This document shows positions 3,941 to 63,713 of a stretch of DNA of 64,000 nt, in pieces. The position numbers and the translations under genes are program-made. The notes under the pieces were generated by a model. That model made no database searches. It was not told the origin of the DNA and saw only the letters and a program-made list of their open reading frames with translations. The stretch is from Cognatitamlana onchidii. GTDB lineage: Bacteria; Bacteroidota; Bacteroidia; Flavobacteriales; Flavobacteriaceae. Numbering within the stretch: position 1 is the stretch's first letter; the number at the start of each line of letters is the position of its first letter. The DNA lies in NCBI RefSeq assembly GCF_004804355.1, contig NZ_SRWZ01000004.1, forward strand, positions 186,001-250,000, in the 5' to 3' direction.

Positions 3941-5197
3941 CTACTTAATATCAAACGCAGCCTTTACTTGATCTACATAATCTAATTTTTCCCATGTAAA
4001 TAGTTCTACTTCAAGAGTTTTAGAATCGCCATTTGGTTGAGAAAAGGTTTTAGTTACTTTTTCATTATTGCGGCCCATATGTCCGTATGCAGCTGTTTCG
4101 CTATACATAGGTGAACGTAGTTTTAGGCGTTCCTCTATAGCAAATGGTCTCATGTCAAAAATTTCAGAAACTTTTTCTGCAATTTCTCCATCGGTTAAAT
4201 TAAAAGGACAGGTGCCATAGGTGTCAATAAAAATTCCCATAGGTTCTACAACACCAATAGCGTAGCTAACTTGTACTAAAACTTCATCTGCTAAACCGGC
4301 AGCAACTAAATTTTTAGCAATATGTCTAGTGGCATAGGCGGCACTGCGGTCTACCTTACTGGGGTCTTTCCCTGAAAAGGCTCCGCCTCCATGAGCACCT
4401 TTGCCTCCGTAAGTATCTACAATAATTTTTCGACCAGTAAGTCCAGTATCTCCATGAGGTCCACCAATTACAAACTTTCCAGTTGGGTTAATATGATATG
4501 TAATGTTATCATTAAAAAGCGTTTGAATGTTTTCGGGAAGCTTTGCTTTGACTCTTGGAATTAAAATGTTGACAATGTCTTTTCTAATTTTTTCAAGCAT
4601 GGCATCATCATCGTCAAAATCGTCATGTTGAGTGGATACCACAATGGCGTCAATGCGTTGAGGTACGTTATCGTCGCTATACTCAATGGTTACTTGGCTT
4701 TTTGAGTCGGGCCTCAAATAGGTTATGTCACTATTTTCACGACGTAATTCGGCAAGTTCCTTTAGAATTAAGTGTGACAAATCTAGTGCAAGAGGCATGA
4801 AATTTTCAGTCTCGTTGGTTGCATATCCAAACATCATACCTTGGTCTCCAGCACCTTGCTCTTCTTTACTGCCTCTATCGACCCCTTGGTTAATATCTTC
4901 AGATTGCTCGTGAATAGCGGATAGAACACCACATGAATTTCCATCAAACATATATTCTCCCTTGGTATACCCTATTTTGTTTATAGTGTCTCTTGCAATT
5001 TTTTGTACATCTAAATAGGTTGTGGATTTTACCTCACCGGCAAGAACTACTTGACCTGTAGTAACTAAAGTCTCACATGCTACTTTAGATTCTTTATCGA
5101 ATGCTAGAAAATTGTCAATTAGAGCATCGCTAATTTGATCAGCAACTTTGTCTGGATGTCCTTCAGAAACACTTTCTGAAGTGAATAAATAAGCCAT
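3941..5197 (-). CDS. metK: S-adenosylmethionine synthetase
   Basis: MetK makes S-adenosylmethionine from methionine and ATP in the cytoplasm. The 418-residue length is normal for the bacterial enzyme. Family hallmarks are visible: GHPDK at residues 13-17, the [12 protein letters not shown] hexapeptide region in the first third, and the phosphate-binding [19 protein letters not shown] segment at about residue 271. The gene stands alone on the minus strand. Its leader carries a SAM-II type riboswitch (5251-5347), so the product should repress its own synthesis. The other methionine genes in the window (metY, metH) carry SAM-I switches instead. Confidence 0.97.
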
Positions 5198-5215
5198 ATT
5201 CTATGTTTTATGGGT

Positions 5216-5237
5216 AAGATTTGACGATAATAACGTC
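5216..5237 (-). promoter_or_regulatory. Candidate expression platform of the metK riboswitch
   Basis: Just downstream of the aptamer lies a small hairpin with arms GACG and CGTC (5223-5237). Overlapping it is a 10-base stretch (plus-strand AAGATTTGAC, 5216-5225) that is exactly complementary to part of the aptamer core (plus-strand GTCAAATCTT, 5332-5341). The aptamer fold and this long-range pairing exclude each other, as expected of a switch. There is no T-run terminator, so translational control is more likely; that is inference. Confidence 0.5.
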
Positions 5238-5250
5238 GCAGGGAGTTTTC

Positions 5251-5347
5251 ACTGCCTTTAGCATTTTTAATCCCTCAATTAATGAGGAGTTTCACGTTTA
5301 TAAATTTAAACCTGAAAAGAGGTTGCAATCAGTCAAATCTTTCCTCT
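5251..5347 (-). ncRNA. SAM-II (SAM-alpha) riboswitch with a long insert, upstream of metK
   Basis: Read on the minus strand, the P1 arms AGAGG and CCTCT (plus-strand 5343-5347 and 5318-5322) enclose a loop carrying the class signatures GATTTGACTG and ATTGCAACC. After an insert come ATTAAAAATGCTAAAGG and CAGT, and the latter pairs with ACTG of the loop to make the class's pseudoknot. These are the conserved SAM-II blocks in the right order. The insert (about 5273-5317) adds two small hairpins, with plus-strand arms CCTCA/TGAGG at 5273-5287 and TTTCA/TGAAA at 5290-5317. The position just upstream of metK supports the call. Confidence 0.82.
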
Positions 5348-5360
5348 GTTATTTGGTCCG

Positions 5361-5368
5361 CAAAAATA
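5361..5368 (-). promoter_or_regulatory. Putative -7 box of metK
   Basis: Read on the minus strand this is TATTTTTG, matching TAnnTTTG. It would start transcription near 5354, just before the first arm of the SAM-II aptamer. No clear TTG is present at -33. Confidence 0.35.
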
Positions 5369-5512
5369 AAAAAATATAAGTAAATATCTACTAGTTTTGT
5401 TTTTTTTCTATTGATTAAGAACGAGAGGTGTTCTAAATTTAAAGATCTTTTAAAAACTCAATTCTACATATTTTTTTACAACTATTTTTCAATTTTGAAC
5501 GTCATAAAAATA

Positions 5513-5540
5513 TTGACTTAAATGATTGTTAATAAGTTTG
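5513..5540 (+). promoter_or_regulatory. Bacteroidota-type promoter of the ilv operon
   Basis: A -33 TTG (5513-5515) and a -7 TAAGTTTG (5533-5540) are separated by 17 bases, matching the consensus TTG-N17-23-TAnnTTTG. The start point would be near 5547. Confidence 0.5.
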
Positions 5541-5641
5541 TTAGAGTGTTTTTGGTGGTTGTGAATTTAACTAGAAGTAATGGCGGATAAAAAGAATTAA
5601 CAGGTGAATAAATTATTTTCGAGCAATATTCCCAAAGGTTA

Positions 5642-5663
5642 AAGAATTTCTGTTAAAATTCTT
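5642..5663 (+). repeat. Leader hairpin before ilvD
   Basis: An 8-bp perfect stem (AAGAATTT and AAATTCTT) with a 6-base loop lies in the ilv leader. It is AT-only apart from one G-C pair and is followed by AAAATAC rather than a T-run, so it is not a convincing attenuator. Confidence 0.4.
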
Positions 5664-5722
5664 AAAATACTGAGGGTATTTAAAAGTAAACAATAAAAGT
5701 AGTAAATCATCATTAACTAATT

Positions 5723-7408
5723 ATGAAAGAACTAAATAAGTACAGTAGCAGATTAACTCAAGACGAATCTCAGCCTGCATCGCAAGCAATGCTATATGCA
5801 GCAGGTTTAACGGAGGAAGATATGAGCAAAGCTCAGGTTGGTATTGCTAGTACGGGGTACGATGGGAACCCTTGTAATATGCATTTAAATGGTTTAGCAG
5901 GAGAGCTTAAGGTAGATTGTAATATTGCAGGTATGGTTGGTTTAGGTTTTAATACTATTGGAGTTAGTGATGGTATTTCTATGGGGACTTCTGGTATGAA
6001 TTACTCTTTGGTTTCAAGAGATATCATTGCAGATTCTATTGAAACCGTTATGAATGCTCAAAGTTATGATGCCTTAATTGCTGTAGTGGGATGCGATAAA
6101 AACATGCCAGGATCTATAATATCTATGTTACGATTGAATCGCCCTGCTATTATGATGTACGGAGGAACAACTGCGTCAGGGACTTACAAGGGGAAAAAGT
6201 TAAATATCGTTTCTGCTTTTGAAGCTTTGGGGCAGAAAGTAGCAGGTGAAATTGATGAGCAAGAGTATAAAGAAATTATAAAAAGGTCTATACCGGGTGC
6301 TGGAGCATGTGGAGGTATGTACACAGCTAACACGATGGCATCAGCCATTGAATGTATGGGCTTTGCATTGCCTTATAACTCATCAATCCCGGCAGAAAAT
6401 CCAAATAAACTGTCGGAGGCAGAAAGATATGCTAGAGCAATCAAAAATCTATTAGAACTAGATTTAAAACCTTTAGATATTATTTCTAAAAAATCTATCG
6501 AAAATGCCATGACTGTTGTTAATGCTCTTGGGGGATCAACAAATGCAGTATTACATTTCTTAGCGATAGCACACGCTGCCGATATCGACTTTACTCTTGA
6601 AGATTTTCAACGTGTAAGTGACAGAACGCCCTTAATTGGCGATTTAAAACCAAGTGGAAAATATCTTATGGAAGATGTTCATGGTGTTGGAGGTACGCCT
6701 GCGGTAATGAAGTATTTATTAGACAACGGTTACTTGCATGGCGATTGTATGACAGTAACAGGTAAAACACTTGCCGAAAACTTAAAAGATGTTGAACCCT
6801 TAGTTTTTGAAGATAGTCAAGACATTATTTATCCAAAGGATAAGGCCTTGAAATCTTCGGGGAATTTACAAATCCTTTATGGGAATCTTGCCAGTGAAGG
6901 TGCTGTGGCAAAAATATCTGGTAACGAAGGTTTGTTGTTTGAAGGAAAAGCCGTGGTTTACAATAGTGAACAGGATGCAAACACCGGTATATCCAATGGT
7001 GAAGTAGAAAGAGGGGATGTTGTCGTCATTAGGTATGTAGGACCTAAAGGAGGTCCAGGAATGCCTGAAATGTTAAAACCAACATCTTTAATTATGGGAG
7101 CTGGTTTAGGAAAATCTGTTGCTTTAATAACAGATGGGCGTTTCTCTGGGGGAACCCACGGTTTTGTAGTGGGCCATATAACCCCCGAAGCACAGTCTGG
7201 CGGGACGATTGCTTTAGTACAAACAGGAGATAAAATTAGAATCAGCGCAGAAGATAATTCTATTAATGTTCTTATCTCAGATGAAGAACTTGAAAGAAGA
7301 AAATCAAACTGGGTTGAGCCAGAATTAAAGCATAAAAAAGGTATATTATATAAATATGCAAAATCGGTAGCATCAGCATCAAAAGGATGTGTTACAGATG
7401 CATTTTAA
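5723..7408 (+). CDS. ilvD: Dihydroxy-acid dehydratase
   Basis: IlvD dehydrates 2,3-dihydroxy-3-methylbutanoate and its methylpentanoate analogue, the third common step in valine and isoleucine synthesis. The 561-residue length is standard. Three cysteines sit where the family binds its iron-sulfur cluster: NPCN (Cys51), GCDKNMPG (Cys124) and [12 protein letters not shown] (Cys196). The active-site block GGRFSGG-like ([15 protein letters not shown]) is present near the C-terminus. It is the first gene of ilvD-ilvB-ilvN-ilvC-ilvA, transcribed from a promoter about 180 bases upstream. Confidence 0.96.
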
Positions 7409-46246: not shown

Positions 46247-46341
46247 GGCTTGAACTTGAAAAAAAAGCACAGAAAAATTTGGATATTAACTTTTTCTGAA
46301 TGAATATTTGCATTCACAAAGTTCAAAAAACTTACTGAAAT

Positions 46342-46463
46342 GTTATCAAGAAAGGTGGAGGGATTAGACCCGCTGAAGCCTTAGCAACCCTTTAAACTTA
46401 TTAAAGAAGGTGCTACGTTCTACTTAAATGACCGATTCATTTATCGGTGTTTGGATAGATAAC
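46342..46463 (+). ncRNA. SAM-I (S-box) riboswitch upstream of metY
   Basis: P1 is GTTATC (46342-46347) with GATAAC (46458-46463). The conserved core reads ATCAAGAAAGGTGGAGGGA, TTAGACCCGCTGAAGCCTTA, GCAACCC, and later GGTGCTACGTTCTAC and AGATAAC, in the order of the S-box consensus. It lies about 115 bases before the metY start and should turn the metY operon down when SAM is abundant. Confidence 0.93.
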
Positions 46464-46468
46464 CCTAA

Positions 46469-46576: not shown

Positions 46577-47851
46577 ATGAGCGATTTAAAATTAGCAACA
46601 AACGCATTGCACGCAGGACATGATGTTAAAGCAACGAGCGGAACCAGAGCGGTGCCAATTTATCAAACATCATCTTATGTTTTTAACGATTCCGACCATG
46701 CAGCGAACCTCTTTTCATTGCAAGAATTAGGGTTTATTTATACACGTTTGAATAATCCAACAAACCAAATTTTACAAGAGCGATTGGCAGCGGTTGAAGG
46801 CGGTATAGGCGCTGTGGTTTTTGCCTCTGGAACAGCGGCGATTTCAACAGGATTATTAACACTTTTAAAAGCTGGAGATCATGTTGTGGCATCAAGCAGC
46901 CTATATGGAGGGACTTATAATTTATTGAGTGTTACCTTACCAAGACTAGGTATAACAACAACATTTGTTGATGCATCAAATCCAGATAATTTTGCTGATG
47001 CTGTTCAAGATAATACAAGAGCATTTTTTGTTGAATCCTTAGGAAATCCAAAATTAGATGTATTAGATTTAGAGGCTATTTCGGTTCATTCAAAGGCTGC
47101 GGGAGTTCCTTTTATTGTTGATAATACGGTAGCAACACCAGCATTGTTAAATCCTATTAAACATGGTGCTAATATCGTAATTCATTCCTTAACCAAGTAT
47201 ATTGGTGGGCAAGGAACCTCGTTAGGCGGTGCAATTATAGATGCAGGGACCTTTGATTGGGCAAATGGAAAATTTCCTGAGTTTACAGAACCTTCAGCAG
47301 GGTATCATGGTTTAAAATATCATGAGGTTTTGGGAGCTGCTTCTTATACGTTTAAATTAATTCTTGAAGGTTTAAGGGATTTTGGCGGTGCTTTAAGTCC
47401 TACTAATGCCTTTAATATTATCCAAGGTTTGGAAACGCTGCCAGTAAGAATAAAACAACATAGTGAAAATGCCTTAGAATTGGCTCAATGGCTAGAAACT
47501 CAAGACGAAGTGGCATGGGTAAACTATCCAGGGTTAGAGAGCAGTAAGTATAAGGCACTAGCCGATAAATACTTGCCTAAAGGTCAAAGCGGTATTGTTA
47601 CTTTTGGTGCCAAAGGAGGTTTTGAAGCGGCAAAAAAGATTGCAGATAATACTAAGTTGTTTTCTTTGTTAGCGAATATAGGAGACACGAAGTCATTAAT
47701 TATTCATCCCTCAAGTACCACACATCAACAATTAGATGAAACAGAGCAAGAGTCGGCCGGTGTTACCGCAGATTTAATTAGGTTATCTGTAGGTATTGAA
47801 AACATTGAAGATCTTAAAGCCGATTTAAAGGAGGCATTTAAAACCATTTAA
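46577..47851 (+). CDS. metY: O-acetylhomoserine sulfhydrylase
   Basis: MetY uses PLP to replace the acetyl group of O-acetylhomoserine by sulfide, giving homocysteine directly. It has 424 residues, the length of this subgroup of Cys/Met-metabolism PLP enzymes. The Schiff-base lysine is Lys207 in HSLTKYIGGQGTSLGG. The opening LATNALHAGHDV and YTRLNNPTNQILQERLA are typical. It sits directly behind a SAM-I riboswitch and before the gene that makes its acetylated substrate. Confidence 0.93.
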   Translation: MSDLKLATNALHAGHDVKATSGTRAVPIYQTSSYVFNDSDHAANLFSLQELGFIYTRLNNPTNQILQERLAAVEGGIGAVVFASGTAAISTGLLTLLKAGDHVVASSSLYGGTYNLLSVTLPRLGITTTFVDASNPDNFADAVQDNTRAFFVESLGNPKLDVLDLEAISVHSKAAGVPFIVDNTVATPALLNPIKHGANIVIHSLTKYIGGQGTSLGGAIIDAGTFDWANGKFPEFTEPSAGYHGLKYHEVLGAASYTFKLILEGLRDFGGALSPTNAFNIIQGLETLPVRIKQHSENALELAQWLETQDEVAWVNYPGLESSKYKALADKYLPKGQSGIVTFGAKGGFEAAKKIADNTKLFSLLANIGDTKSLIIHPSSTTHQQLDETEQESAGVTADLIRLSVGIENIEDLKADLKEAFKTI

Positions 47852-47881: not shown

Positions 47882-50800
47882 TTGAAGCATCCTTTGCAAC
47901 ATATTGTTTTTAAAGATTTTATTACCGAAAGTGATGTGAAAGTCTCCAAAATACAGTTAAGTTATCAGGTTTTTGGAAGATCTTTAGGGGATGCTCCAAT
48001 TGTACTTATTAACCATGCCCTTACTGGTAATAGTAATGTGGCAGGTGATGATGGTTGGTGGCAAGATTTAATAGGCGATGAAAAAGTTATTGATACAAAG
48101 CTTTATACGGTATTGTCCTTTAATATTCCTGGAAATGGTTTTGATGGATTTGTAATAGATAACTATAAAGATTTTGTTGCTAGAGATATTGCGAAAATTT
48201 TCTTGAAAGGGCTAACAGAATTAAATACAGGAAAATTGTTTGCTGTTGTTGGAGGTTCTTTAGGAGGTGGTATTGCATGGGAAATGGCGGTGTTAAAACC
48301 AGATTTGGCTGAACATTTGGTGGTCGTAGCTACCGATTGGAAATCTACCGATTGGTTGATTGCCAATTGCCAAATTCAGGAGCAGTTTTTAATAAATTCT
48401 AAAAATCCGGTGCACGATGCTAGAATGCATGCTATGTTATGCTACAGGACACCGGAGTCGTTTAAAGAGCGTTTTCATCGCACTAAAAATGAAGATCTGG
48501 AGATTTTTAATGTGGAGAGTTGGTTACTACACCATGGTAAAAAACTACAAGAACGCTTTCAGCTATCTGCATATAAGCTGATGAATCAATTATTAAAAAC
48601 AATTGATGTCACAAAGGGCCGCGATAATAACTTTAATGTCTTAGAAAATATTGAGGCTAATATTCATATTGTTGGAGTAGACTCCGATTTGTTTTTTACG
48701 GCAGAAGAAAATAGAGAAACGCAAAAGCAATTAGCATTAACACATCCTAACGTTACTTATAATGAAATTCATTCGGTACATGGACATGACGCCTTTTTAA
48801 TGGAGTATGAACAATTAGAAGAAATTGTAGAAGGCATTTTTGTGCCACATTCTAAAAGAAAACCTATGAAAATATTAAAATTTGGAGGTAAATCTTTGGC
48901 CAATGGAAAAGGTTTAGATACCGTACTTTCAATTATTGAAAATAAAGTAAAATTGGGTGACCGAATCAGTGTTGTGGTATCCGCTAGAGGATCGGCAACA
49001 GACGATTTAGAAACCATTTTAAGCAAAGCCCTAAAAGGCGAATCGTATCAAGAAGAATTGGACGCTTTTAAGGTTTACCAAGCAGCACCATTAAAAACAG
49101 TTGATTTTTCAGCGGAGTTTGCCGTTTTAGATAAGTTATTTGAAGGAGTTAGTCTGTTGCGTGATTACAGTAAAAAAACGAAGGATAGTATTCTAGCGCA
49201 AGGCGAATTGCTATCTGTAAGGCTAATAACAGCTATTCTGAATGAGCGTGGTGTTAAGGCTAATGCTACTGATTCTCGGGAACTCATTAAAACCGATGAA
49301 GCTTTCGGGAATGCACAACCGCTGTCAAAACTTTCTAAAGAAAATACGCAGGCTTATTTTAAAACACATAAGAATGAGGTTAACATTATAACAGGGTTTA
49401 TTGCTTCTAACTTAAAGAATGAAACAACAACTTTAGGTAGAAACGGAAGTAACTACACGGCCGCCTTATTAGCCAACTTTTTAGATGCCGAGGAGTTACA
49501 AAATTACACCCATGTTAGTGGTATTTATACAGCAGATCCAAGTTTAGTACCCGATGCAAAGCAAATTAGAGAATTGTCCTTTAGCGAAGCCAATGAGTTA
49601 GCTAATTTTGGGACGTCTGTGTTACATGCAAAAACGATAATACCTTTAGTAGAGAAGAACATTAGTCTTCGTATTTTAAATACTTTTAATGCAGAAGATG
49701 AAGGCACTTTAATTACAGCAAGGCCGAGTACGAAAGAAGTAACCTCATTATCTGTATTAGAAAATGTCGCGTTATTAAACTTGGAAGGCCGAGGTTTGTT
49801 AGGGAAGATTGGTGTGGATGCCAGAATATTTGGCGCATTGAGTAGGCATGGTATAAGTGTGAGTATAGTATCTCAAGGGTCATCAGAACGTGGTATAGGT
49901 TTAATTATTGATGCTGAAGATGCCACTCAGGCTGTAATTGCTTTAGAACGAGAATTTGAAAGCGATTTCTACTCACAAGATGTCAATAAAATTGATGTGG
50001 TAGATGATGTTTCTGTAATATCCATAGTGGGAATTGAGTTAAGTTCATTCCATAAGCCTTTCAATGCATTAATTAAAAACCAAATTACACCGTTGCTTTT
50101 CAATAATACAGTAACTGGTAAGAATGTGAGTTTGGTAGTTAAAAAGGATCAGTTGCATAAAGCGGTGAACGTAATTCATGGTGAGGTTTTTGGAATTTCA
50201 AAAAAGATAAACATTGCTATTTTTGGACATGGAGGTGTCGGAGGTGCGCTTATCAATCAAATTTTAAAATCGAAGGATGATATTGAACAACGAAAAGTTA
50301 TTAATTTAAATGTATTTGCTATTGCGAATTCTACAAAACTTCTTTTAAATAAAGATGGCGTAGATGCTAATTGGAAAAAAGCCATAAAAGAAACCTATCA
50401 AGAAAGTTCGTTTGAAGCAATTATTGCGTTTGCAAAAGCACATCACCTTGAAAATTTAATTGCGGTAGATAATACAGCAAGTTCTGTGTTTTATAAAAAC
50501 TATGTGCCTTTAGTAGGAGCTGGTTTCGATTTAGTATCGTCAAACAAAGTTGCGAATACGGTATCTCATAAGTTTTATAAAGACTTAAGGGTAAAGTTAA
50601 AAGAAAATAATAAGCAATACTTATATGAAACCACTGTAGGTGCTGGATTACCTTTAATAGATACTATTAAATTGCTGCATGAATCTGGTGAAAATATTAC
50701 TAGAATACGTGGTGTTTTTTCAGGTACTTTAAGCTATTTATTTAATAATTTTTCTGTCCAGGACAAGCCTTTTAGTGCTATTGTGCAAGAAACCATTGAT

Positions 50801-51280
50801 AAAGGGTTTACAGAACCAGATCCAAGAGAAGATTTTTCAGGAAACGATGTTGCTAGAAAGTTGTTAATTTTGGCAAGAGAATTAGATTTGCTAAACGAGT
50901 TTGATGATGTTAAAGTGCAAAATTTAATCCCTAAAGCTTATCAGGATATTTCGGTACAGGAGTTTTTAGGACAGCTCAGTGTTTTAGATGAAGAATTTGA
51001 AACGGTTAAAAACAACCAAGAACCAAATCATGTATTACGTTATGTAGGTGATTTGTCTGGTGATTTATCACAAGATAAAGGAAATTTAGAAGTTAAGCTC
51101 GTGTCTATTCCAGAAGATAGTACCTTAGGGCATGTAAAAGGGTCAGACGCTATTTTTGAAATATTTACAGAGTCTTATGGAGAACAGCCTATTGTTATTC
51201 AGGGAGCTGGAGCAGGAGCAGAAGTAACTGCAAGAGGTGTTTTTGGAGACATTTTAAGGCTTTCAAAGCATATAAATTAA
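47882..51280 (+). CDS. metX-thrA: Fused homoserine O-acetyltransferase / aspartokinase / homoserine dehydrogenase
   Basis: This is a single 1132-residue chain. Residues 1-325 are an alpha/beta hydrolase of the homoserine O-acetyltransferase type, with nucleophile Ser126 (GGSLGG), Asp269 (VDSDLFF) and His302 (GHDAFL). From Met329 (MKILKFGGKS) comes an aspartokinase, then an ACT region (about 625-770), then homoserine dehydrogenase with the Rossmann loop FGHGGVGG at 781-788. The frame starts with TTG at 47882, since no earlier ATG exists. There is no stop between the domains. It therefore joins the first and third steps from aspartate with the activation of homoserine for MetY. Confidence 0.9.
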   Translation: MKHPLQHIVFKDFITESDVKVSKIQLSYQVFGRSLGDAPIVLINHALTGNSNVAGDDGWWQDLIGDEKVIDTKLYTVLSFNIPGNGFDGFVIDNYKDFVARDIAKIFLKGLTELNTGKLFAVVGGSLGGGIAWEMAVLKPDLAEHLVVVATDWKSTDWLIANCQIQEQFLINSKNPVHDARMHAMLCYRTPESFKERFHRTKNEDLEIFNVESWLLHHGKKLQERFQLSAYKLMNQLLKTIDVTKGRDNNFNVLENIEANIHIVGVDSDLFFTAEENRETQKQLALTHPNVTYNEIHSVHGHDAFLMEYEQLEEIVEGIFVPHSKRKPMKILKFGGKSLANGKGLDTVLSIIENKVKLGDRISVVVSARGSATDDLETILSKALKGESYQEELDAFKVYQAAPLKTVDFSAEFAVLDKLFEGVSLLRDYSKKTKDSILAQGELLSVRLITAILNERGVKANATDSRELIKTDEAFGNAQPLSKLSKENTQAYFKTHKNEVNIITGFIASNLKNETTTLGRNGSNYTAALLANFLDAEELQNYTHVSGIYTADPSLVPDAKQIRELSFSEANELANFGTSVLHAKTIIPLVEKNISLRILNTFNAEDEGTLITARPSTKEVTSLSVLENVALLNLEGRGLLGKIGVDARIFGALSRHGISVSIVSQGSSERGIGLIIDAEDATQAVIALEREFESDFYSQDVNKIDVVDDVSVISIVGIELSSFHKPFNALIKNQITPLLFNNTVTGKNVSLVVKKDQLHKAVNVIHGEVFGISKKINIAIFGHGGVGGALINQILKSKDDIEQRKVINLNVFAIANSTKLLLNKDGVDANWKKAIKETYQESSFEAIIAFAKAHHLENLIAVDNTASSVFYKNYVPLVGAGFDLVSSNKVANTVSHKFYKDLRVKLKENNKQYLYETTVGAGLPLIDTIKLLHESGENITRIRGVFSGTLSYLFNNFSVQDKPFSAIVQETIDKGFTEPDPREDFSGNDVARKLLILARELDLLNEFDDVKVQNLIPKAYQDISVQEFLGQLSVLDEEFETVKNNQEPNHVLRYVGDLSGDLSQDKGNLEVKLVSIPEDSTLGHVKGSDAIFEIFTESYGEQPIVIQGAGAGAEVTARGVFGDILRLSKHIN

Positions 51281-63568: not shown

Positions 63569-63593
63569 TTCGCCAGTTCATTAACGTATTAGT

Positions 63594-63698
63594 GTTATCA
63601 AGAAAGGTAGAGGGATTAGACCCAATGAAACCTTGGCAACCCTTTAACTTGTAAAGAAGGTGCTACGTTCTACTCCAAAGTTTTAGGAGACAGATAAC
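63594..63698 (+). ncRNA. SAM-I (S-box) riboswitch upstream of metH
   Basis: P1 is GTTATC (63594-63599) with GATAAC (63693-63698). The core is nearly identical to the metY copy: ATCAAGAAAGGTAGAGGGA, TTAGACCCAATGAAACCTTG, GCAACCC, GGTGCTACGTTCTAC and AGATAAC. It lies 54 bases before the metH ATG. Confidence 0.93.
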
Positions 63699-63713
63699 GA
63701 ATAGTATTTTTGC

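Follow-up and report, generated by a model that had tools for sequence, protein, structure and literature searches.

The window, by which we mean the whole 64,000-nucleotide stretch of DNA analysed, contains on its minus strand a metK gene (5197-3941) coding for a methionine adenosyltransferase of 418 amino acids (NCBIfam TIGR01034, 511 bits, cut-off 309); the best-matching named MetK, that of an uncultured Algibacter (L083), is 92.8% identical. Upstream of the gene, on the same strand, nucleotides 5352-5247 are a full-length match to RF01726 (model positions 1-60 of 60; 46.7 bits in cmscan against Rfam 15, where the gathering score is 44 bits), with E-values of 9.4e-6 over the 64 kb window and 1.5e-7 over 1 kb. 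An earlier note on this DNA had read the element in front of metK as a SAM-II riboswitch from the order of its conserved blocks, and had proposed a covariance scan. All the blocks were found at the places given, in the sequence and in the RF01726 alignment, the match lies above the curated threshold and spans the insert described below, and the downstream ORF is indeed metK.

The aptamer and its genomic setting

Helix P1 is formed by AGAGG (5347-5343) and CCTCT (5322-5318), with five pairs, none of which is marked as broken in the RF01726 alignment. The 5' arm is followed by GATTTGACTG (5339-5330) and ATTGCAACC (5329-5321), i.e. by GATTTGACTGATTGCAACC (5339-5321), whose last bases begin the P1 3' arm. 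The conserved pocket and pseudoknot strand AAGATTTGAC (5341-5332), located by the alignment and the leader fold, is the target of a downstream strand discussed later. By complementarity, ACTG (5333-5330) is the predicted 5' strand of pseudoknot P2, as P2 is described in PMC1273637, and its partner is CAGT (5254-5251), which together with the A-rich loop AAAAATGCTAAAGG (5268-5255) makes up the 3' half of the aptamer (5268-5251). Both GATTTGACTGATTGCAACC and AAAAATGCTAAAG are at consensus, and the alignment treats the insert as a single insertion in a core that is itself at consensus; the low score is due to the presence of the insert. A permissive scan of 4800-5800 listed RF01726 alone and no other Rfam family, SAM-V included; SAM_alpha gave no separate match there up to an E-value of 10, and RF00521 may be absent from the Rfam copy scanned. 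The element belongs to the SAM-II riboswitches with a long loop, a known kind, and nothing places it outside RF01726.

Fifty-three bases separate CAGT from the metK ATG (5197). On the other side of the aptamer, TATTTTTG (5368-5361) is promoter-like and fits TAnnTTTG, which we take to be the consensus of the Bacteroidetes -7 box. In 110 of the 113 distinct metK leaders, against 5.8% of shuffles, the same box lies in the 70 bases that precede the GATTTG core, mostly 16-27 bases ahead of it. With a promoter box so closely upstream in nearly all leaders, the aptamer appears to open the metK transcript.

RF01726 matches were present in 52 of 60 relatives, in at least 373 of 397 sampled genomes of the family (at least 358 over the cut-off) and in 34 of 247 genomes of the class, part of the last being from the same family. 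An exact pattern requiring a loop of 30-60 bases retrieved 70 public genome stretches. Almost all carry the label Flavobacteriaceae or Bacteroidota; the exceptions are loosely named MAGs and one MAG called Alphaproteobacteria (L075), in which the long-loop SAM-II and metK leader (774-856) is of the flavobacterial type. The gene downstream of SAM-II was metK in 121 of 122 sources, including the window and its copy L001 (a script recognized 119 of them, and L094 and L114 were inspected by eye). In the sole exception (L004, 1501-1560), SAM-II precedes an O-acetylhomoserine sulfhydrylase-like gene; the genome concerned (G004) is small and has two SAM-II matches and no SAM-I match, and SAM-II may there have replaced SAM-I.

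Three matches above the gathering score were found in the 64 kb window, the other two being SAM-I aptamers (RF00162) on the plus strand. One (46340-46465) is upstream of an O-acetylhomoserine sulfhydrylase gene (46577-47851) and one (63592-63700) upstream of the metH start (63710), so that the window has SAM-I on methionine genes and SAM-II on metK. The SAM-I controlled unit also holds a frame of 1132 residues (47882-51280, plus strand) fusing a MetX-like homoserine acyltransferase with a bifunctional aspartate kinase/homoserine dehydrogenase. Both riboswitch classes occurred in 26 of the 38 relatives searched, the genome of the window among them, unlike what the 2007 census (PMC2258182) reports. 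In one relative (G046, contig C2, 100719-100942), the metK SAM-II and a SAM-I aptamer stand back to back on opposite strands, 66 bases apart; the same arrangement within one intergenic region, with gaps from tens to a few hundred bases, was seen in G049, G005, G009 and G013.

The loop insert

An insert (5317-5269, minus strand), defined from the RF01726 alignment, occupies the loop that joins P1 to the A-rich 3' block. The earlier note had described it as some 45 bases with two hairpins; the hairpins are borne out by folding (5317-5290 and 5288-5272, both retained when the whole leader is folded), while the length is 49 bases. With short flanks (5325-5265), the insert folds into two hairpins at -15.5 kcal/mol against a shuffle mean of -6.9 (z -3.8), an energy that none of 200 shuffles matched. 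The same note had presented the element as an unusually enlarged SAM-II. The long, hairpin-filled loop is there, whereas its rarity did not hold, the form being already known: RF01726 is itself described as 'SAM-II long loop', PMC2864571 tabulates the form, and inserts of 30-60 bases occur in the 70 genome stretches mentioned above.

Compared with their dinucleotide shuffles, 62 of the 78 distinct inserts from the relatives and the window fold better at p<=0.05, with a mean z of -3.1. One closed domain was predicted in 54 of the 78, two domains in 23 and three in a single case, and the ends of the inserts are almost closed, with medians of 0 and 2 unpaired bases. Since the sequences are very different and yet folded, it is closure, and not the letters, that is kept. 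By analogy with the known SAM-II fold, this fits an insert acting as a spacer that would bring its own ends together and hold P1 and the A-rich block in contact. It should be noted that insert-length statistics from the 70 named loci are biased to long loops by the 30-60-base pattern that retrieved them, and that the unbiased set of loop lengths is that of the SAM-II matches from 60 relatives. On metK within Flavobacteriaceae, loops range from about 9 to 70 bases. Of the leaders in the 60-relative set, 10 of the 16 long ones and 11 of the 33 short ones have a fifth P1 pair (one further short leader could not be parsed), which is a weak trend.

Several inserts contain GATxCTGAAACAAGTTCAGxAT, presumably a repeat type of flavobacteria. 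Palindrome matches were found in 12 of 14 genomes searched, and the reversed control gave 0; away from the riboswitch, the surroundings of the copies are varied in sequence and often flanked by TGA...GACA. A dispersed palindrome of the form TGA-GATNCTGAAACAAGTTCAGNAT-GACA, with outer bases that change and remain matched, is repeat-like in many flavobacterial genomes (L124-L146; 60 matches in G422, for example).

Conceivably, the insert hairpins arose from such extragenic palindromes, which lodged in a tolerant loop and have since decayed, and are functionless themselves. This is a possibility to be taken seriously, although we consider it the less probable one. In five of the 14 genomes (L060, L099, L054, L072 and L052), the insert holds the palindrome GATNCTGAAANNANTTCAGNAT, and the same genomes contain 17, 59, 14, 9 and 14 other copies, respectively. 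However, hairpin 2 of the window occurs only once in its own genome by pattern search, the matching insert of L097 is the sole palindrome copy in that genome, and a pattern for the Aequorivita-type hairpin frame, which covered CCG-type stems only, found little besides the riboswitch itself. Short-loop genomes also carry the palindrome (e.g. G028 and G024, with 18 matches each), several long-insert genomes have none, and copy number did not track loop length among 36 Flavobacteriaceae genomes. The window insert does not match the dispersed palindrome GATNCTGAANNNNNTTCAGNAT, four repeat copies of which sit elsewhere in its own genome (G000). Judging from sequence comparison, repeat insertion would be a good account of the origin of the insert in some members, and for the window it is at most a candidate one.

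A downstream strand complementary to the aptamer

Between the aptamer and metK lies GTCAAATCTT (5225-5216, minus strand), a ten-base exact reverse complement of AAGATTTGAC (5341-5332), which we propose as an anti-aptamer, i.e. switching, strand. The minimum-energy fold of the window leader pairs the two (-40.8 kcal/mol, z -3.85). When leaders are aligned, GTCAAATC stands at a nearly constant place after CAGT and is the reverse complement of GATTTGAC in the aptamer.

For each leader, the longest stretch of the downstream region exactly complementary to the core was compared with that of 100 shuffles. It was longer at p<=0.05 in 74 of the 114 distinct leaders, related leaders not being independent. 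The set derives from 119 leaders whose start was detected, and excludes L004, L094 and L114. By loop class, the proportion was 65 of 80 for inserts of at least 20 bases and 9 of 34 for short loops; for the window leader (L001), p was 0.01. In folding models, which leave out the pseudoknot and SAM, the probability that GATTTGAC pairs with the downstream region exceeded 0.5 in 74 of 80 long leaders (36% of shuffles) and 23 of 34 short ones (46% of shuffles), and the modelled pairing probability of core and downstream region was 0.87 for long leaders (0.36 shuffled) and 0.65 for short ones (0.45 shuffled). A second complementary element, CTTTAG against GCTAAAG, was also tried and rejected, as it reached p<=0.05 in only 3 of 114 leaders.

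Because most leaders share one core, those with variant cores were tested separately, with the addition of 32 of 40 class-level loci (seven were missed by the regular expression and L182 was mis-anchored), giving 141 distinct leaders in total. In the 52 leaders that represent 33 variant cores, pairing of the core with its own downstream region averaged -10.03 kcal/mol, against -8.69 with exchanged partners, a value reached in none of 5000 permutations; with one leader per variant core, the figures were -10.48 and -8.99, again with 0 of 5000. The longest Watson-Crick run did not differ in the variant-core permutation (5.38 vs 5.34; 1803 of 5000 reached the own value). As base composition could add to the result of the exchange, the own downstream regions were also compared with their shuffles, and -10.03 stood against -7.24 kcal/mol, with 0 of 200. 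Taken singly, 14 of the 52 leaders were significant, and the reversed-core control gave no signal in them (98 of 100). In the 89 majority-core leaders, the true core gave -12.84 against -6.87 shuffled; here the reversed core was also shifted (-6.27 vs -5.39, 0 of 100), to an extent far smaller than the true core. Individual leaders illustrate the pattern: core GATTTGGC occurs with downstream GCCAAATC in L015, CTGATTGC with GCAATCAG in L014 and L051, and GAGTAG with CTACTC in L149 and L151.

These comparisons indicate that the anti-aptamer strand is likely to be general in long-loop flavobacterial leaders, and a strand in a shifted register is probably present in many others. In the parts of the SAM-II literature covered, no account of a downstream complementary strand was found.

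Possible regulation of metK and related riboswitches

We suggest, with a probability of about 0.72, that a long-loop SAM-II riboswitch at the 5' end of the metK mRNA mediates feedback regulation, with the insert as a closed-hairpin spacer and GTCAAATCTT capturing the aptamer when SAM is lacking. The computed grounds are the covariance score, which places the element in the family, its gene context, the hairpin folding of the inserts, and a downstream strand that recurs in relatives and is complementary specifically to its own aptamer; SAM binding, the OFF direction, the two-state switch and its last step are what we infer. When SAM is plentiful, the pseudoknot would close around it and metK expression would fall, feedback repression being the expected direction. 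Without SAM, AAGATTTGAC would be captured by GTCAAATCTT, about 35 to 18 bases upstream of the metK start, so that the pseudoknot could not form and metK would be made; binding of SAM would release this pairing. In both states, the two hairpins of the insert would stay folded, each closed on itself, as a spacer looped out of the aptamer that keeps the ends of the gap close.

As to the last step, no terminator-like site (GC-rich hairpin and T run) was found in 5100-5450. Sequestration of the start codon was considered and found no support, as the modelled accessibility of positions -5 to +6 in the long set is nearly equal in the free (0.52) and bound (0.49) states. In the 55 bases ahead of the gene, the C/G ratio is 1.88 for 53 metK genes and 1.04 for 190 other ORFs, 10% of which reach the metK mean. 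With no terminator, a start equally open in both states and a C-rich, G-poor leader, freeing of the leader for Rho is our leading guess, a tentative one; translation or mRNA stability could be affected instead, and the C-richness may also merely reflect complementarity to the aptamer.

A different mechanism would be direct closure alone, in which the SAM-II pseudoknot acts as in the translational metX/SAM-V type and the downstream complement is a by-product of a conserved leader. Direct occlusion is the mechanism described for translational SAM-II and for SAM-V in PMC6061858 and PMC10907184, and the 3' block contains AAAGG, which looks like a ribosome-binding site. This AAAGG is, however, about 58 bases ahead of the metK ATG, and the distance from GCTAAA to ATG is 60-117 bases (median 72). 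Distance alone does not exclude direct closure, since in the metA SAM-II riboswitch, according to PMC9373788, the Shine-Dalgarno drives a start 74 nucleotides downstream. The downstream complementarity, moreover, follows the aptamer variant, and we regard this mechanism as unlikely. Far less probable is a regulatory upstream reading frame starting at the ATG inside AAAAATGCTAAAGG: in the window, this ATG (5264-5262) is open, as read by eye, for 18 codons to a TAA ahead of metK, but over 111 leaders the frame lengths scatter (the commonest, five codons, in 35 of 111) and the frames relative to metK are spread 42/37/32, on which grounds the idea was rejected. Chance resemblance to SAM-II, which a surplus of just 2.7 bits over the gathering score might suggest, is refuted by the comparative data, the same element being upstream of metK throughout the family; the core at consensus and the effect of the insert on the score argue in the same direction.

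Extending the proposed feedback switch to other Bacteroidota, it is possible, though doubtful, that an expression platform not described before is common to their metK SAM-II riboswitches. It would consist of a sequence-mobile, co-varying anti-aptamer strand (here 5225-5216) that would hold the pocket strand when SAM is lacking and whose release would expose a C-rich leader to Rho, and the loop would be a free site at which closed hairpins, some derived from dispersed palindromes, are gained and lost. The riboswitch itself is ordinary. If the switching strand is true, the SAM-II group of Bacteroidetes would have an expression platform that works without a terminator and without a ribosome-binding site embedded in it; in addition, the natural series of loop lengths tests how the pseudoknot tolerates insertions.

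Among known systems, SAM-V shares its pseudoknot core and SAM pocket with SAM-II and acts translationally through occlusion of the Shine-Dalgarno, as described in PMC6061858; it was not matched in the window. In the preQ1-II riboswitch, an H-type pseudoknot, a stem-loop interrupts the second loop (PMC10907184). Its ligand and core are different, and it offers a parallel to the hairpins placed here in the loop of a pseudoknot rather than being a relative. The alphaproteobacterial SAM-II/metA element, as PMC1273637 describes it, has P1, the pseudoknot and a promoter a few bases ahead of P1, as in the window, and likewise opens its transcript; its loop is short and many examples have intrinsic terminators, in contrast to the 49-base insert and the terminator-free leader found here. 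Closest is the long-loop form, tabulated in PMC2864571 as 'SAM-II long loops ... Bacteroidetes, marine, RF01726'. The 60-position RF01726 model is without the downstream complementary strand, and its alignment stops at CAGT and four further bases; the core, P1, the pseudoknot strands, the long loop and the Bacteroidetes host are all shared by the element in the window.
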